NCBI RefSeq assembly: GCF_013391105.1
Contig: NZ_CP058335.1
Location: forward strand, 3,100,001-3,164,000
Length of the DNA: 64,000 nucleotides
Source: Natronomonas salina
Lineage (GTDB): Archaea > Halobacteriota > Halobacteria > Halobacteriales > Haloarculaceae
Reading direction: 5' to 3'
Of the stretch, positions 43,005-49,346 are shown piece by piece. Every line of letters begins with the position of its first letter. Position 1 is the first letter of the stretch. Under the pieces are notes generated by a model that saw only the letters and a list, made by a program, of their open reading frames with translations, was not told where the DNA came from and did no database searches. The translations under genes were made by a program, and so were the position numbers.

Positions 43005-43712
43005 ATGGCTACGGAGACGTGTGCGTTCGTCGGTGCCGCGGGTGGCGCCGGCACGACGCGCGTGACGCTGGAGTGTGCAGCCCTACTGGCCCGGGAGGGG
43101 AGCGACGTCGCCGTGCTCGACGCCGCCTACGGGACGCAGGGGCTCGCCGATCGGATCCCTGGTCGCGTCGACCCCGACGTGACCGCCCTCTGTCTCGACG
43201 ACCGACCGCTCGAGGAGGGGTTCGTCGACCCGGACGTGTCGGGCGCGGGACGGCTCGCCGTCTGTCCCGCCAGGGCGCCGTTTGAGCGCCTCGCCCGGGC
43301 GAAGGCACCCGAGGCGGCGGCCGCGTTCGGCGACCGGATCGACGAGGCCGCCAGGGCCTTCGATCACGTCCTCGTCGATACGCCGCCCGTGGCGGCCAAC
43401 CAGGCGGTCGCCGCAGTGACCGGCGTCGAGCAGGTCGCGGTGGTCTGCGACGCCAACCGCGCCGCCGCCGCGGTCCCCCGCGCCGAGGACCGACTGGCCG
43501 ACGTCGGCATACCGGATCCGGTGACGGTCGTCACGAGGGCCGAGGACCACCCCGACGCCGACGTCGCGGTCCCGACCTTCGAGGGCGAGTGGCCGGCCGT
43601 CTCCGGGGACGAATCGGTCCACGACGCGTTCGCAGCCGTTCTCGGTATCGCCGTCGACGTGGCGGTGGAACCGGAGACCGGCGAGGGGCTCCGCTCGAAG
43701 TTCCCCGTATAG
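43005..43712 (+). CDS. MinD/ParA-like protein lacking the ATPase lysines
   Basis: Protein of 235 residues with the layout of the MinD/ParA deviant-Walker family: N-terminal strand and P-loop-like FVGAAGGAGTTRVTLECAALLA, GSDVAVLDAAYG after it, FDHVLVDTPP as Walker B, and QVAVVCDANRAAAAVPRAEDRL. The signature K-G-G-x-G-K-T has become A-G-G-A-G-T-T, so both lysines are absent and ATP hydrolysis is unlikely. A homologue is, as I recall, next to the TFB gene in other haloarchaea, so the arrangement looks conserved. The C-terminal about 25 residues are short compared with MinD. It shares DNA with the antisense tail of the gene at 43364-44206. Confidence 0.85.
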   Translation: MATETCAFVGAAGGAGTTRVTLECAALLAREGSDVAVLDAAYGTQGLADRIPGRVDPDVTALCLDDRPLEEGFVDPDVSGAGRLAVCPARAPFERLARAKAPEAAAAFGDRIDEAARAFDHVLVDTPPVAANQAVAAVTGVEQVAVVCDANRAAAAVPRAEDRLADVGIPDPVTVVTRAEDHPDADVAVPTFEGEWPAVSGDESVHDAFAAVLGIAVDVAVEPETGEGLRSKFPV

Positions 43713-44206
43713 AGCCAGTCGTCCGCGTCGCCGACGGCGTCGGACAGGGGGTCCGAATCTCGACCGGTCGACAGCGCGTCTGCGACGACCGCTTCAGCGT
43801 CGGCGATCGGTTCGTGGGTCGCGACGTAGGCGCCGAGCGCGAACTCGTCGTCGCCGACGCCGATCAACCGTTTGGCCTCGGTCCGCGATATCTCGCCGGC
43901 CAGCCAGTCGTCGATGATCCGACCGCCGGTGGGCGTCAGGGGATCGACGGGCTCGCCGAGCAGGTGGAGCGCTTTCGCCGCCATCGTCTTCGGTAGTTCG
44001 GCCACGGCCGCCGCGCGACCGACGCTCGCCCCACCGACGTAGGCCTCCACCAGCGTCGCGGCGGCGTCGGCCGAACAGGGGAGCTCGTCGTCGAACCTCG
44101 ACAGTCGGTCGGCCAGCGTCGCGTCCGTCTCGTCGCTCGTCGCGACGCTGCGCTCCCGCTGTTCGGTCGTCACCTCCAGTCCGGCGGCGATGTCCGACAG
44201 GGCCAT
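43364..44206 (-). CDS. Uncharacterised haloarchaeal protein with antisense run-through tail
   Basis: Protein of 280 residues if read to the stop. The first about 165 residues look like a real domain: MALSDIAAGLEVTTEQRERSVA, ADAAATLVEAYVGGASVGRAAAVA, PKTMAAKALHLLG and FALGAYVATHEPIADAEAVVADAL, a helical regulator-like layout. From about residue 170 the reading becomes a Ser/Thr/Ala-rich string because it is antisense to the MinD-like gene for 349 bases. Loss of the original stop after DDWL (the codon there is TAT, one change from a stop) is a plausible cause. Transcribed divergently from the TFB gene, with a gttaaac promoter-like element about 29 bases upstream. Confidence 0.72.
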   Translation of the reverse strand: MALSDIAAGLEVTTEQRERSVATSDETDATLADRLSRFDDELPCSADAAATLVEAYVGGASVGRAAAVAELPKTMAAKALHLLGEPVDPLTPTGGRIIDDWLAGEISRTEAKRLIGVGDDEFALGAYVATHEPIADAEAVVADALSTGRDSDPLSDAVGDADDWLYTGNFERSPSPVSGSTATSTAIPRTAANASWTDSSPETAGHSPSKVGTATSASGWSSALVTTVTGSGMPTSASRSSARGTAAAARLASQTTATCSTPVTAATAWLAATGGVSTRT

Positions 44207-44350: not shown

Positions 44351-44378
44351 GTATCATCCGGCCCCATCTCCACACGTG

Positions 44379-45248
44379 ATGAGCACGAGCACGCGACGGG
44401 CCTGCCCCGAGTGCGAGGGGCGGCTGCGGAGCACCGGCACGGAGACGGTCTGCAGCGAGTGCGGTCTGGTGGTCGGCGAGGACGCCCTCGACCGAGGGCC
44501 GGAGTGGCGGTCGTTCGCGGACGACGACGGCAACCCGGAGCGCTGCGGGGCGCCGCTCACCCGATCGCGACACGACCGCGGACTGTCGACCGAGATCGGC
44601 CACTCCACGCGCCTGAAGGGACGGAAGCGGCGACGCGTGGCCCGCATGCGGCGGGAGCACAAGCGGGCGCGGATCGGGTCGAAGCGCGACCGCAACCAGG
44701 TCTACGGGTTCACGGAGATCCGGCGCGTGACGGGCCAGCTCGAACTCCCCGACGCGCTCCAGGAACGGGCCTGCGTCCTCTTCGAGTCCGCCCAGGACGA
44801 GAACCTCCTGCAGGGCCGTTCCATCGAGGGGTTCGCCGCGGCGGCGGTGTACGCGGTCTGCCGGACCGCCTCCGTCTCGCGGACGCTGGGGGAGATCGTC
44901 GGCGTCGCCGCCGCCGACGAGGCCGAACTGAAGGTCGCCTACGACGCGCTGAACCGCGACCTCGGATTGCCGACCGGCCCCATCGACCCCGCGGAGTACC
45001 TCGCCCGCTTCGCCTCGAAGCTCGACGTCCCGAGCGCGCTGGAGCGGCGGGCCCGCGAGCTCGCGACGGATGCCAGTGACGCCGGCATCACGACCGGCCG
45101 GAATCCCAGCGGTGTCGCCGCCGCCTGCCTCTACACGGTCGCCCGCGAGTCGAGCTACGACCTCACGCAGGAGGAGGCCGCCGACGTGGCCGGCGTCTCG
45201 ACGGTCACGATCAGGAACACCTACCAGGACCTGCGGGACTCGGCCTGA
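44379..45248 (+). CDS. tfb: Transcription initiation factor B (TFB)
   Basis: Protein of 289 residues. An N-terminal zinc ribbon (CPECEGRLR, then CSECGLVVG) is followed by a B-reader/linker region and two cyclin-like repeats (about residues 100-190 and 195-285). Typical phrases are SIEGFAAAAVYAVCR and NPSGVAAACLYTVARE, with the C-terminal DNA-contacting helix ending STVTIRNTYQDLR. It recruits RNA polymerase to TBP-bound promoters. Haloarchaea carry many TFB genes with different targets; which one this is cannot be fixed. The ATG at 44379 is chosen over a GTG three bases upstream. It ends overlapping the convergent gene by 28 bases. Confidence 0.95.
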   Translation: MSTSTRRACPECEGRLRSTGTETVCSECGLVVGEDALDRGPEWRSFADDDGNPERCGAPLTRSRHDRGLSTEIGHSTRLKGRKRRRVARMRREHKRARIGSKRDRNQVYGFTEIRRVTGQLELPDALQERACVLFESAQDENLLQGRSIEGFAAAAVYAVCRTASVSRTLGEIVGVAAADEAELKVAYDALNRDLGLPTGPIDPAEYLARFASKLDVPSALERRARELATDASDAGITTGRNPSGVAAACLYTVARESSYDLTQEEAADVAGVSTVTIRNTYQDLRDSA

Positions 45249-45784
45249 GCCAGTCGGGCGAACGACTCGGTCGGGAGCTCCACCGACTCGATCCGCGCCG
45301 CGAGCCCGTCGGGAGCGACGTCCAGCCGCGACAGTACCCGACGGTCACGGGCGAGGTCCGCCGCCAGTTCTTCCACGGCCGCCAGTCCACCGACGGATGC
45401 GACCGCCCGGGTCGCCGACGGGAGGTCTTCGACCGCCTCCAGCCGTTCGGCGGTCTCGACCCGCTCTCGGACCCGGTCGAGCCAAGTTGCCATCCCCACC
45501 GGCAGTTCGGACTCCCGCACCGGCTCGGCGCGGACCAGCTCCGCGACCGGTTCCGCGGGCTCGACGGGCGTCGCGAAGCCGAAGGCGGTCGTCCCCGTCT
45601 CGACGGTCGCCGTCACGCCACTGTTGTCCCAGCCCTCAGCCGGACGGCCCTCCGCTCTCGGCGGCCACACCGGGCCGTCGAGCCGGCTCTCGACGCGAAG
45701 GCGGTGCGGCCGTTCGGCGGTCACCAGCAGTTCGACGAACGTCACGCCGTCGCCGCGGACGGTCTCGACGGTGAGCGTCGGCAC
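45221..45784 (-). CDS. Uncharacterised protein, last of the mcm-linked gene run
   Basis: Protein of 187 residues, soluble, acidic. The N-terminal half is strand-rich (MPTLTVETVRGDGVTFVELLVTAE) and Arg/Pro-rich; the C-terminal half is helical (RERVETAERLEAVEDLPSATRAVASVGGLAAVEELAADLARD). No enzyme motif is seen. It is 29 bases downstream of the coiled-coil gene on the same strand and overlaps the 3' end of the convergent TFB gene by 28 bases. The reading frame is maintained across the overlap, so the ending is probably real. Confidence 0.82.
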   Translation of the reverse strand: MPTLTVETVRGDGVTFVELLVTAERPHRLRVESRLDGPVWPPRAEGRPAEGWDNSGVTATVETGTTAFGFATPVEPAEPVAELVRAEPVRESELPVGMATWLDRVRERVETAERLEAVEDLPSATRAVASVGGLAAVEELAADLARDRRVLSRLDVAPDGLAARIESVELPTESFARLAQAESRRSW

Positions 45785-45813: not shown

Positions 45814-46479
45814 TTACAGCCTGTAGACGGGCGCCGACAGCCAGGCTTCGGCGTCCTTCCCGCTCTCGAACCGCCTGCAGGCCAGCACGACCGGCGTCCG
45901 GACGCGTCCCACCCGGATCAGCGCCAGCGCGGCCGTCACCGGAGCTGCGGCCTCGTAGCTCGATGCCCCCGAGCCGGGCGCCGCGCCGACGGCCTCGTCG
46001 ACTGCCGGACGGACGGCCTCGATCAGTTCCTCCCGGGCCTGCCGCTCGAGGTTCGCCACCCGGTCCTCCAGCCGGAGACGCTCCTCGCGTTCGTCGCGGG
46101 CCTCGCGAGCCCGCCTCCGGGCGTCCGCCAGCGCCTCCGCTGCGGCGGCGCGCTCGGTCTCGGCCTCGGTGAGTTCCCGCACCGCGGCCCGGTAGGCCTC
46201 CTCGACCTCTCCGTCGTCGGTCGCCCGGAGCCGACCGCGGAGCGTCGCGACTCGCTCGCGCGTCTCGTCGATGTCGGCCTCGGCCTCGGCGACCCGACGT
46301 CGCGCCGCAGCCAGCGAGGGTACCGGCTCGCCGAGGTCGGCCAGCCGTTCCCGGGCGTCGCGTAGCTCCTCGTCGACCGACGTGGCGAATCCGCGGGAAC
46401 GGGCGGCCGCGACCAGCGCCTCGCGGCGGTCGAGGGACGTGCCGGGTGCGACGACGCCGACGTGGTCGTGGAGGGTCAC
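45814..46479 (-). CDS. Coiled-coil protein in the mcm-linked gene run
   Basis: Protein of 221 residues. The centre (about residues 60-150) is a long, highly charged coiled coil (DIDETRERVATLRGRLRAT, EAYRAAVRELTEAETERAA, DERREERLRLEDRVANLER-like repeats of Glu/Arg/Ala). The N-terminus MTLHDHVGVVAPGTSLDRREAL and the C-terminal VRTPVVLACRRFESGKDAEAWLS resemble a small folded end. It overlaps the next upstream gene by 4 bases. The coiled coil suggests a structural or scaffolding role in a complex; the family is unknown to me. Confidence 0.85.
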   Translation of the reverse strand: MTLHDHVGVVAPGTSLDRREALVAAARSRGFATSVDEELRDARERLADLGEPVPSLAAARRRVAEAEADIDETRERVATLRGRLRATDDGEVEEAYRAAVRELTEAETERAAAAEALADARRRAREARDEREERLRLEDRVANLERQAREELIEAVRPAVDEAVGAAPGSGASSYEAAAPVTAALALIRVGRVRTPVVLACRRFESGKDAEAWLSAPVYRL

Positions 46480-46814
46480 AGCTCCCGCGACTTGAGCTCC
46501 GCCGGCGACGGGTGCGGGGAGTCGACCGCGAACTTCGCGTACGCCGTGTTCGGGTCCGACCGGCCCTCGTAGGCCGTCGCCGCCTCGCGGACGGCGTCGG
46601 GGACCGTTCGGAACTCGTTGAACGGTTCGGTCCGCTCGACCTGCACGTCGTCGGGGTGCTTCTCGCGGAGCCGCAGCGCCAGGAACGCGCCGTGGTGGCT
46701 CTCCGCCAGCAGCGCCGCCCGCCCGAACCGGCGGACGACGCTCTCCTCGTGGGTCCGGCAGACGTTCCGCAGCGAGGTCCGGGCGGCCTGCGAGTACGTG
46801 ACGACCAGCAGCAC
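46476..46814 (-). CDS. Uncharacterised protein in the mcm-linked gene run
   Basis: Protein of 112 residues: MLLVVTYSQAARTSLRNVCRTHEESVVRRFGRAALLAESHHGAFLALRLREKH, then a hydrophilic acidic stretch with FNEFRTVPDAVREAATAYEG and TAYAKFAVDSPHPSPAELKS. The single cysteine and paired histidines are not arranged as a metal site. It overlaps the coiled-coil gene by 4 bases and follows the small helical gene by 39 bases, so it is part of one transcription unit with mcm. Function unknown. Confidence 0.83.
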   Translation of the reverse strand: MLLVVTYSQAARTSLRNVCRTHEESVVRRFGRAALLAESHHGAFLALRLREKHPDDVQVERTEPFNEFRTVPDAVREAATAYEGRSDPNTAYAKFAVDSPHPSPAELKSREL

Positions 46815-46853
46815 GCGCTATTCGTCGACGTATTCAGGAGTAAAATTAACGGT

Positions 46854-47108
46854 TCAGTCCAGCTTTTCGACCGTCGGCGCCTCGGCGTCGGTCAGTTCCC
46901 GGACGCGCTCTCTGGCCTCCCGCTCGGAGGCGGCGACCACGACTGCGCCGTCGTCGGCCCTGTAGGCCGCGAGGTCGCCGTCGAACTCTGTCGCGAAGGT
47001 CCGGACCGTCGCCCGCACCTGCCGTTCGCAGTCTGCCAGGTCGGTCTCGCCGGCCTCGAGGTCGGCCAGCGCGTCCTCGATCTGCCGGAGCGCGGCGATG
47101 CGGTCCAT
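46854..47108 (-). CDS. Small helical protein directly downstream of mcm
   Basis: Protein of 84 residues, acidic and predicted mostly helical (MDRIAALRQIEDALADLEAGE, then RATVRTFATEFDGDLAAYRADDG, ASEREARERVRELTDAEA). It starts four bases after the stop codon of mcm, so it should be co-transcribed with the replicative helicase. It might bind MCM or another replisome component, but this rests on position only. Confidence 0.82.
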   Translation of the reverse strand: MDRIAALRQIEDALADLEAGETDLADCERQVRATVRTFATEFDGDLAAYRADDGAVVVAASEREARERVRELTDAEAPTVEKLD

Positions 47109-47112
47109 CGCG

Positions 47113-49215
47113 CTAGATCATCCGGACGAACCCGTTCTGGGGCTCGTAGATGTCGCCGCGCTTCTTGAACTCGGAGATGCGGTGCTCGGCCTTCGACTCG
47201 TCGACGCCGGCCTCCTGGGCCCGCTCGACGACGGCGTCGACCGGGGCGCCGGGCTCGTCCTCGTACTCCTCCTGCAGCTCCTCGATGATGTTGAGCAGGG
47301 TCTTCGCGCGGTCGCGCTGGCTCTTCGACTGGCCGGTCTCGACGACGTCGGCGTCGAACTCGCCGGTCTCGGGGTCGACGCCGATGTCCTGCAGGCAGGA
47401 CCTGACGATCTCGATGACGCGCTCGGAGTCCTCCTGCTCGACGGTGTCGGAGAGGCGCATCCGCGCGGAGGCCTCCGAGAGCCGCACGAGGGCCTCGAGC
47501 TTCCGGGCGGTGACCGGGACCGGCGCGTCGTCGTCCTGGCCCTTCGCACGCAGGTCGACGTAGAAGTCCCGGATGGCCTCCTTGGCCTCCTCGGTCATCG
47601 TCGGGAAGCAGTTCCGCTTGGCGTAGGCGATGTACTTCCGGAGGAACTCGGCGTCGATGTCGGGCTCGACGTTGCCGGTGACGTTGTCGACCTCCTCCTG
47701 GGTGACGTTGGAGGTGGCGTTGTTCTGCCGGTGGGTGTGCAGCTCGCCGGCGTAGTTCGTGTTGATGATGTGCTCGGCGAGGTTGGCGTCCTTCTCCTGG
47801 TCGGGCTGGTCGGTGACCGTGAAGATGAGGTCGAACCGGGAGATGAGCGCCGGCTCGAGGTCGATCTGCTCGCCGATGGGCTCGTACTGGTCGAAGCGGC
47901 CGTACTTCGGGTTGGCTGCGCCGAGCAGCGAGCACCTCGATTTGAGGGTCGCGTTGATGCCGGCCTTCGAGACGGAGATGGACTGCTGCTCGAGGGCCTC
48001 GTGCATCGCCGAGCGGTCCTCCGGCCGCATCTTGTCCAGCTCGTCGACCGCCGCGATGCCCTGGTCGGCCAGGACGAGCGCCCCCGCCTCCAGCGTCCAC
48101 TGCTGGCCGTCGCCGAAGTCGTCGCGGACGGCCGCCGCCGTGAGACCGGCCGAGGACGACCCCTTGCCGGAGGTGTAGACGGAGCGCGGCGCGATGTTCC
48201 GGATGTACTGCAGCATCGCGGACTTCCCGGTACCCGGGTCGCCGATGAGGAGCATGTGGAGGTCCCCGCGGATGCGGGAGCCGTCCGGCAGATGTTTGGT
48301 CACGCCGGAGAACAGCTGGAGCATCATCGCGAGCTTCTCCTGCTCGTAGCCGTAGATGGAGGGCGCGATGGAGTTGACCATCTGCTCGTAGATGTCGTCG
48401 GCCCCGGAGAGCTCGATGATCTCCTTCTTGTCCTGGTCGGTGATGTCCATGTCCTCGAACTGCTCGTCCTCGATCTCCACCGAGAGGCCGTCCATGTAGA
48501 CGTCGAAGATGGGGGACTTCTCCTGGTTGCTCTCCTGCTGGTCGAGGTGGAGGATGCCGGTCACCCGGACGTGGTCGCCGGCGGTCACCTCGCCGGTGAT
48601 GTCGTCCTCGATGTGGACGTCGATGCTCTGGGGCGTCTCGCCGCCGCGCAGTCCCTCCGGGGACTCCTGGACGCGAAGCTTCTGGGCGTCGACGAACTCC
48701 GACTGGTCGAAGTTGATGTTGAACGGTCCCTGCCGCTCGCAGCCCTGGCACTCGTGGGGCTCGTGGAACTCTCCGGAGGTCTGGGGGATGCGGCTGAGCG
48801 TCCCGCATCGCTGGCACTCGAAGGCCGCCTCGGTGATCTTCGGCCGGACGTCGGTGGCCTTCCGGACGATGCCGCTGACGGCGACCAGCTGGCCGCGGTG
48901 GCGCGCGCGGATGTCACGGATGCCGGTCGACTCCTGGAGGTTCTGGACGCGGACGTGGGCCTGCCCGAGCTTGACGTCGACCGGGAGGTCGTACAGCCGG
49001 AGGGCCTCCTCGGCGTAGTCGCGCATCTGCTCGGGCTGGGCGACGAAGTCGTCGGCGAGGTCGGGGTCGAAGCGGTAGAGTTCGTCCCAGTCGACGTACA
49101 GCGAGCGCTGCTCGTTGGGGTACCGCTGGGCGAGTTCACCGATCTCGTTCCGGTAGTAGTCGCGGTAGAACTGCTCGAACTTGTCGATGACCTCGGTGTT
49201 CTCCGCGCGCGCCAT
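47113..49215 (-). CDS. mcm: Minichromosome maintenance helicase
   Basis: Protein of 700 residues. The N-terminal domain has a zinc-binding CQRCGTLSRIPQ...CQGC pair. The AAA+ core has Walker A GDPGTGKSAML near residue 323, Walker B VLADQGIAAVDELDKM near 380-395, and the arginine finger in ISRFDLIF. A winged-helix domain is at the C-terminus (RAKTLLNIIEELQEEYE onwards, ending EPQNGFVRMI). It unwinds DNA at replication forks as a hexamer. No intein, unlike some haloarchaeal copies. The ATG at 49215 is preferred to 49260 because a cttaacc promoter-like element is about 30 bases upstream. Confidence 0.97.
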   Translation of the reverse strand: MARAENTEVIDKFEQFYRDYYRNEIGELAQRYPNEQRSLYVDWDELYRFDPDLADDFVAQPEQMRDYAEEALRLYDLPVDVKLGQAHVRVQNLQESTGIRDIRARHRGQLVAVSGIVRKATDVRPKITEAAFECQRCGTLSRIPQTSGEFHEPHECQGCERQGPFNINFDQSEFVDAQKLRVQESPEGLRGGETPQSIDVHIEDDITGEVTAGDHVRVTGILHLDQQESNQEKSPIFDVYMDGLSVEIEDEQFEDMDITDQDKKEIIELSGADDIYEQMVNSIAPSIYGYEQEKLAMMLQLFSGVTKHLPDGSRIRGDLHMLLIGDPGTGKSAMLQYIRNIAPRSVYTSGKGSSSAGLTAAAVRDDFGDGQQWTLEAGALVLADQGIAAVDELDKMRPEDRSAMHEALEQQSISVSKAGINATLKSRCSLLGAANPKYGRFDQYEPIGEQIDLEPALISRFDLIFTVTDQPDQEKDANLAEHIINTNYAGELHTHRQNNATSNVTQEEVDNVTGNVEPDIDAEFLRKYIAYAKRNCFPTMTEEAKEAIRDFYVDLRAKGQDDDAPVPVTARKLEALVRLSEASARMRLSDTVEQEDSERVIEIVRSCLQDIGVDPETGEFDADVVETGQSKSQRDRAKTLLNIIEELQEEYEDEPGAPVDAVVERAQEAGVDESKAEHRISEFKKRGDIYEPQNGFVRMI

Positions 49216-49346
49216 TTGATTACCAGACCTTGGCGCGCCGCCGGTTAAGAAGTTTGCCACCCGGAGCGGAAGTGAAGTCGGCGTCCCGACGCCTGCTGGC
49301 GATTATCCGGGAGGTCTCGACTCAATCGCCCGCCGCCGTCCGGGAG

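Follow-up and report, generated by a model that had tools for sequence, protein, structure and literature searches.

A MinD-fold protein family of haloarchaea that lacks both P-loop lysines and is inherited together with DUF7858

The accepted working mode of MinD and ParA proteins is a cycle driven by ATP, and among their relatives the TadZ/CpaE proteins carry a receiver-like domain at the N-terminus. Relatives that are short of the P-loop lysines are already known, namely McdA type 1, BcsQ, and TadZ. McdA type 1, which positions carboxysomes and has a small dedicated partner, McdB, is described as lacking the signature lysine (PMC8262871; PMC9178275), while keeping the catalytic lysine (SGGQGKT) and showing strong ATPase activity (PMC9178275). 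The P-loop of BcsQ, a protein of cellulose secretion in enterobacteria, is listed as RGGVGTT (PMC9178275, Table 1), and PDB entry titles name ADP as well as ATP complexes of BcsQ (6yb5, 6ybb). TadZ of E. rectale is reported to have lost both lysines and yet to have ATPase activity (PMC10482377). No description of a haloarchaeal MinD relative with a GGxGTTR loop and a neighborhood such as the one presented below was found in the open-licence literature.

The window, meaning the whole 64,000-nucleotide stretch of DNA analyzed, belongs to a haloarchaeal genome of 3.75 Mb on a single contig. It holds an ORF that had been singled out for the P-loop A-G-G-A-G-T-T, with both Walker lysines gone. The ORF was confirmed, as was the loop, which reads VGAAGGAGTTR with the preceding residue, so that residues 12-18 are A-G-G-A-G-T-T and are followed by R19. 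The name MinD* is used here for this lysine-less MinD-fold protein of haloarchaea (Table 1). The two canonical MinDs of the same genome read SGKGGVGKTT and SGKGGTGKTT. The spacing of the TATA-like sequence from the start codon would fit a leaderless haloarchaeal transcript of MinD*.

Table 1. Features of the MinD* locus in the window, with the canonical MinD1 genes of three Haloferax loci.
Feature	Position	Strand	Remarks
TATA-like TTTTTAA	42975..42981	+	about 24-30 bases 5′ of the MinD* ATG; read by eye
MinD* ORF, lysine-less MinD-fold protein	43005..43712	+	ATG to TAG, 235 aa
Degenerate P-loop, residues 10-19, GAAGGAGTTR	43032..43061	+	both lysines replaced; Arg19 nearly invariant
Switch I, residues 39-47, DAAYGTQGL	43119..43145	+	first Asp kept; second Asp replaced by Ala41
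Walker B and start of next helix, residues 123-132, LVDTPPVAAN	43371..43400	+	invariant Asp125 and Asn132
DUF7858 gene	43364..44206	-	domain match ~43748-44206; PF25257, E 2.4e-56; convergent with MinD*
TFB (TFIIB) paralogue of the conserved cluster	44376..45248	+
DUF7857	45221..45784	-	ORF overlaps TFB ORF; no MinD1 between them in the window
DUF7856, DUF7855, and DUF7854 genes of the cluster	45814..47108	-
MCM replicative helicase gene, cluster end	47113..49260	-	named from translation, not family scan
Canonical MinD1	L087:8513-9172; L080:8964-9623; L083:8500-9159	-

MinD* is homologous to MinD/ParA. Its AlphaFold model is confident (mean pLDDT 95.3), and the best PDB match of the model is P. 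furiosus MinD (1g3q; Z 25.3, 2.6 A, 212 residues aligned, 18% identity), in agreement with the MinD-like fold named in the original prediction. P. horikoshii 1ion gives Z 24.3 at 2.8 A over 213 aligned residues; the archaeal MinD structures thus cover the model nearly end to end, with the MinD domain beginning at residue 2. With the family profile, MinD chains of known structure are matched at E values from 1.6e-8 to 1.9e-7, and these alignments superpose the GKGGxGK loop of the P. furiosus, A. fulgidus, and A. aeolicus MinDs on the P-loop of MinD*. When taken alone, the window protein falls under every curated family cut-off scanned: 23.5 bits for PF13614 (cut-off 27), 19.4 bits for minD_arch (TIGR01969; cut-off 201.75), and 16.5 and 13.5 bits for the BcsQ models TIGR03371 (cut-off 157.85) and PF06564 (cut-off 21.3). 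It is unlisted at E <= 1 by the actinobacterial Ssd/CpaE homologue model TIGR03815 (cut-off 154.45 bits). Among 58 orthologues, matches at E <= 0.01 were obtained with minD_arch and ParA_partition for all 58, with PF13614 for 57, with TIGR03371 for 54, and with TIGR03815 for 23. A C-terminal membrane anchor was also sought: with L072 and L086 excluded, 67 of 108 MinD* tails agreed with a permissive pattern of our own making, which is no evidence of an anchor.

Compared with archaeal MinD (1g3q, 1ion), MinD* shares the whole fold, Walker B, and the P-loop glycines, but differs in having no lysine at either site, an Arg after the loop, and an Ala in place of the switch-I Asp. Its resemblance to BcsQ lies in the fold (Z 20.4 over 204 residues of 6yb5) and in a Thr at the catalytic lysine site; however, MinD* scores far under the BcsQ cut-off, and no cellulose family occurs among the scanned neighbors of the window gene. 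TadZ resembles MinD* in the reported loss of both lysines, a likeness taken from its description. Unlike TadZ, MinD* consists of the MinD fold alone, its model having no N-terminal receiver-like domain of the TadZ/CpaE kind, and no Tad family was found among the scanned neighbors in the window. McdA type 1 likewise has no signature lysine, but in contrast to MinD* the catalytic lysine is kept.

Residues were counted over 138 distinct MinD* orthologues from 193 loci, all with a match and with identities to the window protein down to 28%. Protein and profile searches not built on the P-loop motif supplied 76 of them, and a pattern scan that partly used the motif supplied the other 62; the lysine loss runs through both subsets. 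Neither Lys nor Arg occurs at residue 12 or residue 17 in any of the 138. At residue 12, the site of the signature lysine, the residues are T (70), A (44), and V (24), and at residue 17, the site of the catalytic P-loop lysine, T (121), V (8), A (8), and S (1). The lysines are also absent from all 30 MinD* loci of the nearest genomes. As a control, MinD1 of the same cluster has both lysines in 38 of 40 loci, with no P-loop read in the other two. Purifying selection is evident as well: dN/dS of MinD* is 0.13-0.33 in ten pairs of related species, against 0.108 and 0.163 in two pairs for MinD1, and so MinD* evolves somewhat faster yet is clearly constrained. The lysine loss is family-wide, and since it is common to relatives across the haloarchaea, MinD* is a protein that has been maintained although its pocket is altered. 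The orthologue alignment, named in the original prediction as a check, excludes both chance and a mutation of a single strain.

Two further changes go beyond those previously noted. Residue 19, which follows GTT and is S/T in the canonical loop, is Arg in 136/138 orthologues (W and T in the others), and residue 41, the site of the second switch-I aspartate, is Ala in 131/138 (N 2, D 2, S 1, G 1, gap 1). Replacing this aspartate with Ala is an established way of blocking hydrolysis, and the PDB entry titles "McdA(D38A)-ATP complex" and "Soj protein mutant, D41A" fit such a use. The residue-41 column holds Asp in P. furiosus MinD, A. fulgidus MinD, and A. aeolicus 4v03, and Ala in 4v02, the A. 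aeolicus MinC:MinD complex. Elsewhere the pocket is kept. Gly13, Gly14, Gly16, Thr18, Asp39, and Asp125 are found in 137-138 of the 138 orthologues, and Asn132 is invariant; Walker B, correctly foreseen as an intact VDTPP, reads LVDTPP at residues 123-128 and has its Asp125 in 138/138. Positions conserved in at least 97% of the 138 include 10, 13, 14, 16, 18, 19, 39, 44, 46, 125, and 132, spanning the P-loop, switch I, and Walker B. With specific residues replaced and the others held in 137-138 of 138 sequences, the pocket was changed at defined positions and has since stayed constant, a near-invariance that plain decay does not predict.

This pattern, in which the lysines and the switch-I Asp are replaced, the glycine loop, the Mg-type Thr, and two aspartates are kept, and Arg19 and Asn132 are fixed, suggests that static binding of a nucleotide or another anion, or else arrest in a single conformation, is the most likely state of the pocket. 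MinD* would then be a maintained, probably ATPase-deficient MinD/ParA fold that no longer switches between nucleotide states, and it may offer DUF7858 a fixed platform, in a module to which DUF7855 and its neighbors also belong. On balance, we lean slightly towards this reading, in which MinD* does not cycle ATP. The earlier label of pseudo-ATPase is a plausible proposal, and a role as scaffold or regulator is a reasonable one to infer. Loss of ATP binding or hydrolysis is nevertheless not certain, since the lysine-less relatives BcsQ and TadZ are reported to bind or hydrolyze ATP. It could be that MinD* is an unusual but active ATPase, in which Arg19, together with the often conserved Lys100, replaces the lysines and ATP is still hydrolyzed as described for TadZ (PMC10482377). 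The near-invariance of Arg19, the presence of Lys100 in 125/138 orthologues, and the fixed P-loop glycines, Thr18, Asp39, and Asp125 speak for such an enzyme, and because of the TadZ precedent and the well-kept pocket the idea is retained, as an unlikely one: the switch-I Asp is Ala in nearly all members, Lys100 gives way to M (8), S (3), or Q (2) in 13 sequences, and Pro128 is Leu in 8/138. At the other extreme, the pocket could be empty and its conserved residues could just hold the loop in a purely structural pseudo-enzyme that acts by surface contacts. That almost every family member has lost the two lysines along with the switch-I Asp agrees with this, but the conservation of P-loop, switch I, and Walker B positions seems more than a bare scaffold needs, making it a rather improbable account.

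The gene order of Haloferax helps to place MinD* among the known haloarchaeal MinDs. Four MinDs are named in H. volcanii, MinD1 being HVO_0225 (PMC11621097; PMC11588486), and the TFB and MCM genes are given as HVO_0226 (PMC7714728) and HVO_0220 (PMC6063281), respectively. Three Haloferax loci (L080, L083, and L087) carry a canonical MinD gene, its P-loop reading SGKGGVGKST, between DUF7857 and TFB, with the lysine-less gene on the opposite side of TFB, beyond DUF7858. The identification of MinD* with MinD1 (HVO_0225) was rejected on this gene order, which shows MinD1 to be another, canonical gene; counting genes, HVO_0225 would be the canonical MinD1 and MinD* would correspond approximately to HVO_0228. 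Papers found in the open-licence literature for the neighboring gene tags contain no mention of HVO_0224, HVO_0227, or HVO_0228. A tree of 32 sequences separates a MinD* clade (14/14, support 0.98) from a MinD1 clade (14/14, support 0.91), with MinD* on a long branch whose nearest relative is not resolved in this tree. Thus, although MinD1 to MinD4 of H. volcanii share the MinD fold with MinD*, and MinD1 by gene order shares its cluster, MinD* is a further paralogue: it has neither the clade, nor the place between DUF7857 and TFB, nor the two lysines of the MinD1-type genes. The published H. volcanii quadruple deletion covers MinD1-4, and if the gene order holds, this removal of all four named minD genes left the MinD* gene intact.

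Proximity to MinD1 raises the possibility that MinD* is the inactive subunit in a heterodimer with a canonical MinD, most obviously MinD1 of the cluster, or else another MinD. Of the named loci, 51 contain both TFB and DUF7856, and 36 of these carry MinD1 between TFB and DUF7857, which speaks for such a partnership. MinD1 is absent from that place in 15, mainly of the Natronomonas type, and in the window, all of which have MinD*, and a strong MinD1 match (E < 1e-39) is present in 7 of 26 genomes without MinD*. A heterodimer is very improbable, although these counts bear on MinD1 alone and another MinD may be the partner; an obligate pairing of MinD* and MinD1 was rejected on the same counts. 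DUF7857 is retained in the window with no adjoining MinD1.

An alignment-based search of loci gave 181 relatives, an earlier scan with the single protein having produced 233 pattern matches with none confirmed; the best 80 of the 181 were kept, and the closest named relatives at the MinD* locus among them are Natronomonas. Across 80 named loci, several of which were ended by a contig end or by the fetched length, the neighbors of MinD* are HIT (65), DUF7858 (61), TFB (61), DUF7856 (51), DUF7855 (51), DUF7857 (49), DUF7854 (48), and MCM (42). A profile search of 391 genomes of the class yielded 252 matches at E <= 1e-10; once nine weak hits on other MinDs are set aside, 243 genomes have MinD*. 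The phylum was sampled through 392 genomes, and since the 50 that match at E <= 1e-12 all belong to the same order or nearer, MinD* looks confined to the haloarchaea as far as sampled. DUF7858 is present in 240 of the 391 genomes. In counts uncorrected for ancestry, 238 have both MinD* and DUF7858, five MinD* alone, two DUF7858 alone, and 146 neither, and one genome has both even though they are ~110 kb apart (G024). The seven exceptions to the pairing are DUF7858 at a contig end (G221), a weak, split DUF7858 (G097), a mere piece of DUF7858 beside MinD* (G099), a sub-threshold match only (G163), and three genomes with no DUF7858 within the 4.2 kb fetched (G224, G297, and G380).

Losses of MinD* are scattered over genera, occurring for example in two (G002 and G010) of the 19 other genomes from the genus of the window, and MinD* and DUF7858 are both lost in one genome (G065) of a genus (g44) that otherwise has both. 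Absence from so many genomes is what a decaying gene might leave behind. Decay or a sequencing artefact is nonetheless extremely improbable, being contradicted by the dN/dS values in all ten pairs, by the same residues in 138 sequences, and by the conserved gene order. The two genomes of the window's genus without MinD*, both near-complete, also show no DUF7858, DUF7855, or DUF7857. A control set of 26 genomes without MinD*, or with a weak match only, was hand-picked. None of the 26 has DUF7858 and 25 have no DUF7855, so that a larger module goes together and co-loss does not single out DUF7858. DUF7857 occurs in seven, the same seven that have the strong MinD1 match, so that a second sub-module seems to consist of DUF7857 and MinD1. 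An exclusive pair of MinD* and DUF7858 is not favored over other pairs by mirror-tree analysis of 40 loci, with HIT left out and length limits set on each protein set (partial r 0.285 for DUF7858, 0.320 for DUF7856, and 0.301 for TFB, each with MinD*). DUF7856 (45814-46479, minus strand, in the window) has weak matches to MutS2, SMC, and Rad50 models, and may therefore be a coiled-coil protein of the module.

Several MinD/ParA partners engage through a conserved disordered peptide. The DUF7858 protein, mostly 160-180 residues long and unmentioned in the open-licence papers searched, has a well-conserved N-terminus (residues 1-30) of low pLDDT, and this peptide is apparently disordered in the model of one orthologue (L031, mean pLDDT 82), which otherwise shows two groups of three helices. 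Because a peptide of this kind is the mode of several MinD/ParA partners, a contact between MinD* and DUF7858 is proposed. A fold search with DUF7858 gave no Foldseek match at E <= 0.001 and a best Z of 4.7, with no solved structure reliable, and a likeness to helix-turn-helix proteins is an impression only. More broadly, and as a doubtful though possible extension of the static-platform reading, the P-loop may have been remade around arginine (GGxGTTR) for a permanent nucleotide, with MinD*, DUF7858, DUF7855, and their neighbors beside TFB and MCM forming a novel static module that organizes the cell or regulates genes, a MinD without the cycle. The family tests what a MinD fold can do without cycling, its lysines and switch-I Asp having been dropped long ago and its pocket otherwise fixed. 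DUF7858 was found in H. volcanii and MinD* is carried by Haloferax relatives, so knock-out and tagging are possible in a standard laboratory archaeon.

In H. denitrificans (L098:6800-9200), other ORFs replace DUF7858, TFB, MinD1, and the remaining DUF genes between MinD* and MCM. In two near relatives (L031 and L033), the stop codons of DUF7858 and MinD* lie only a few bases apart, and in the window no DUF7858 stop occurs at 43709-43712, the frame continuing for ~115 residues antisense into MinD*.
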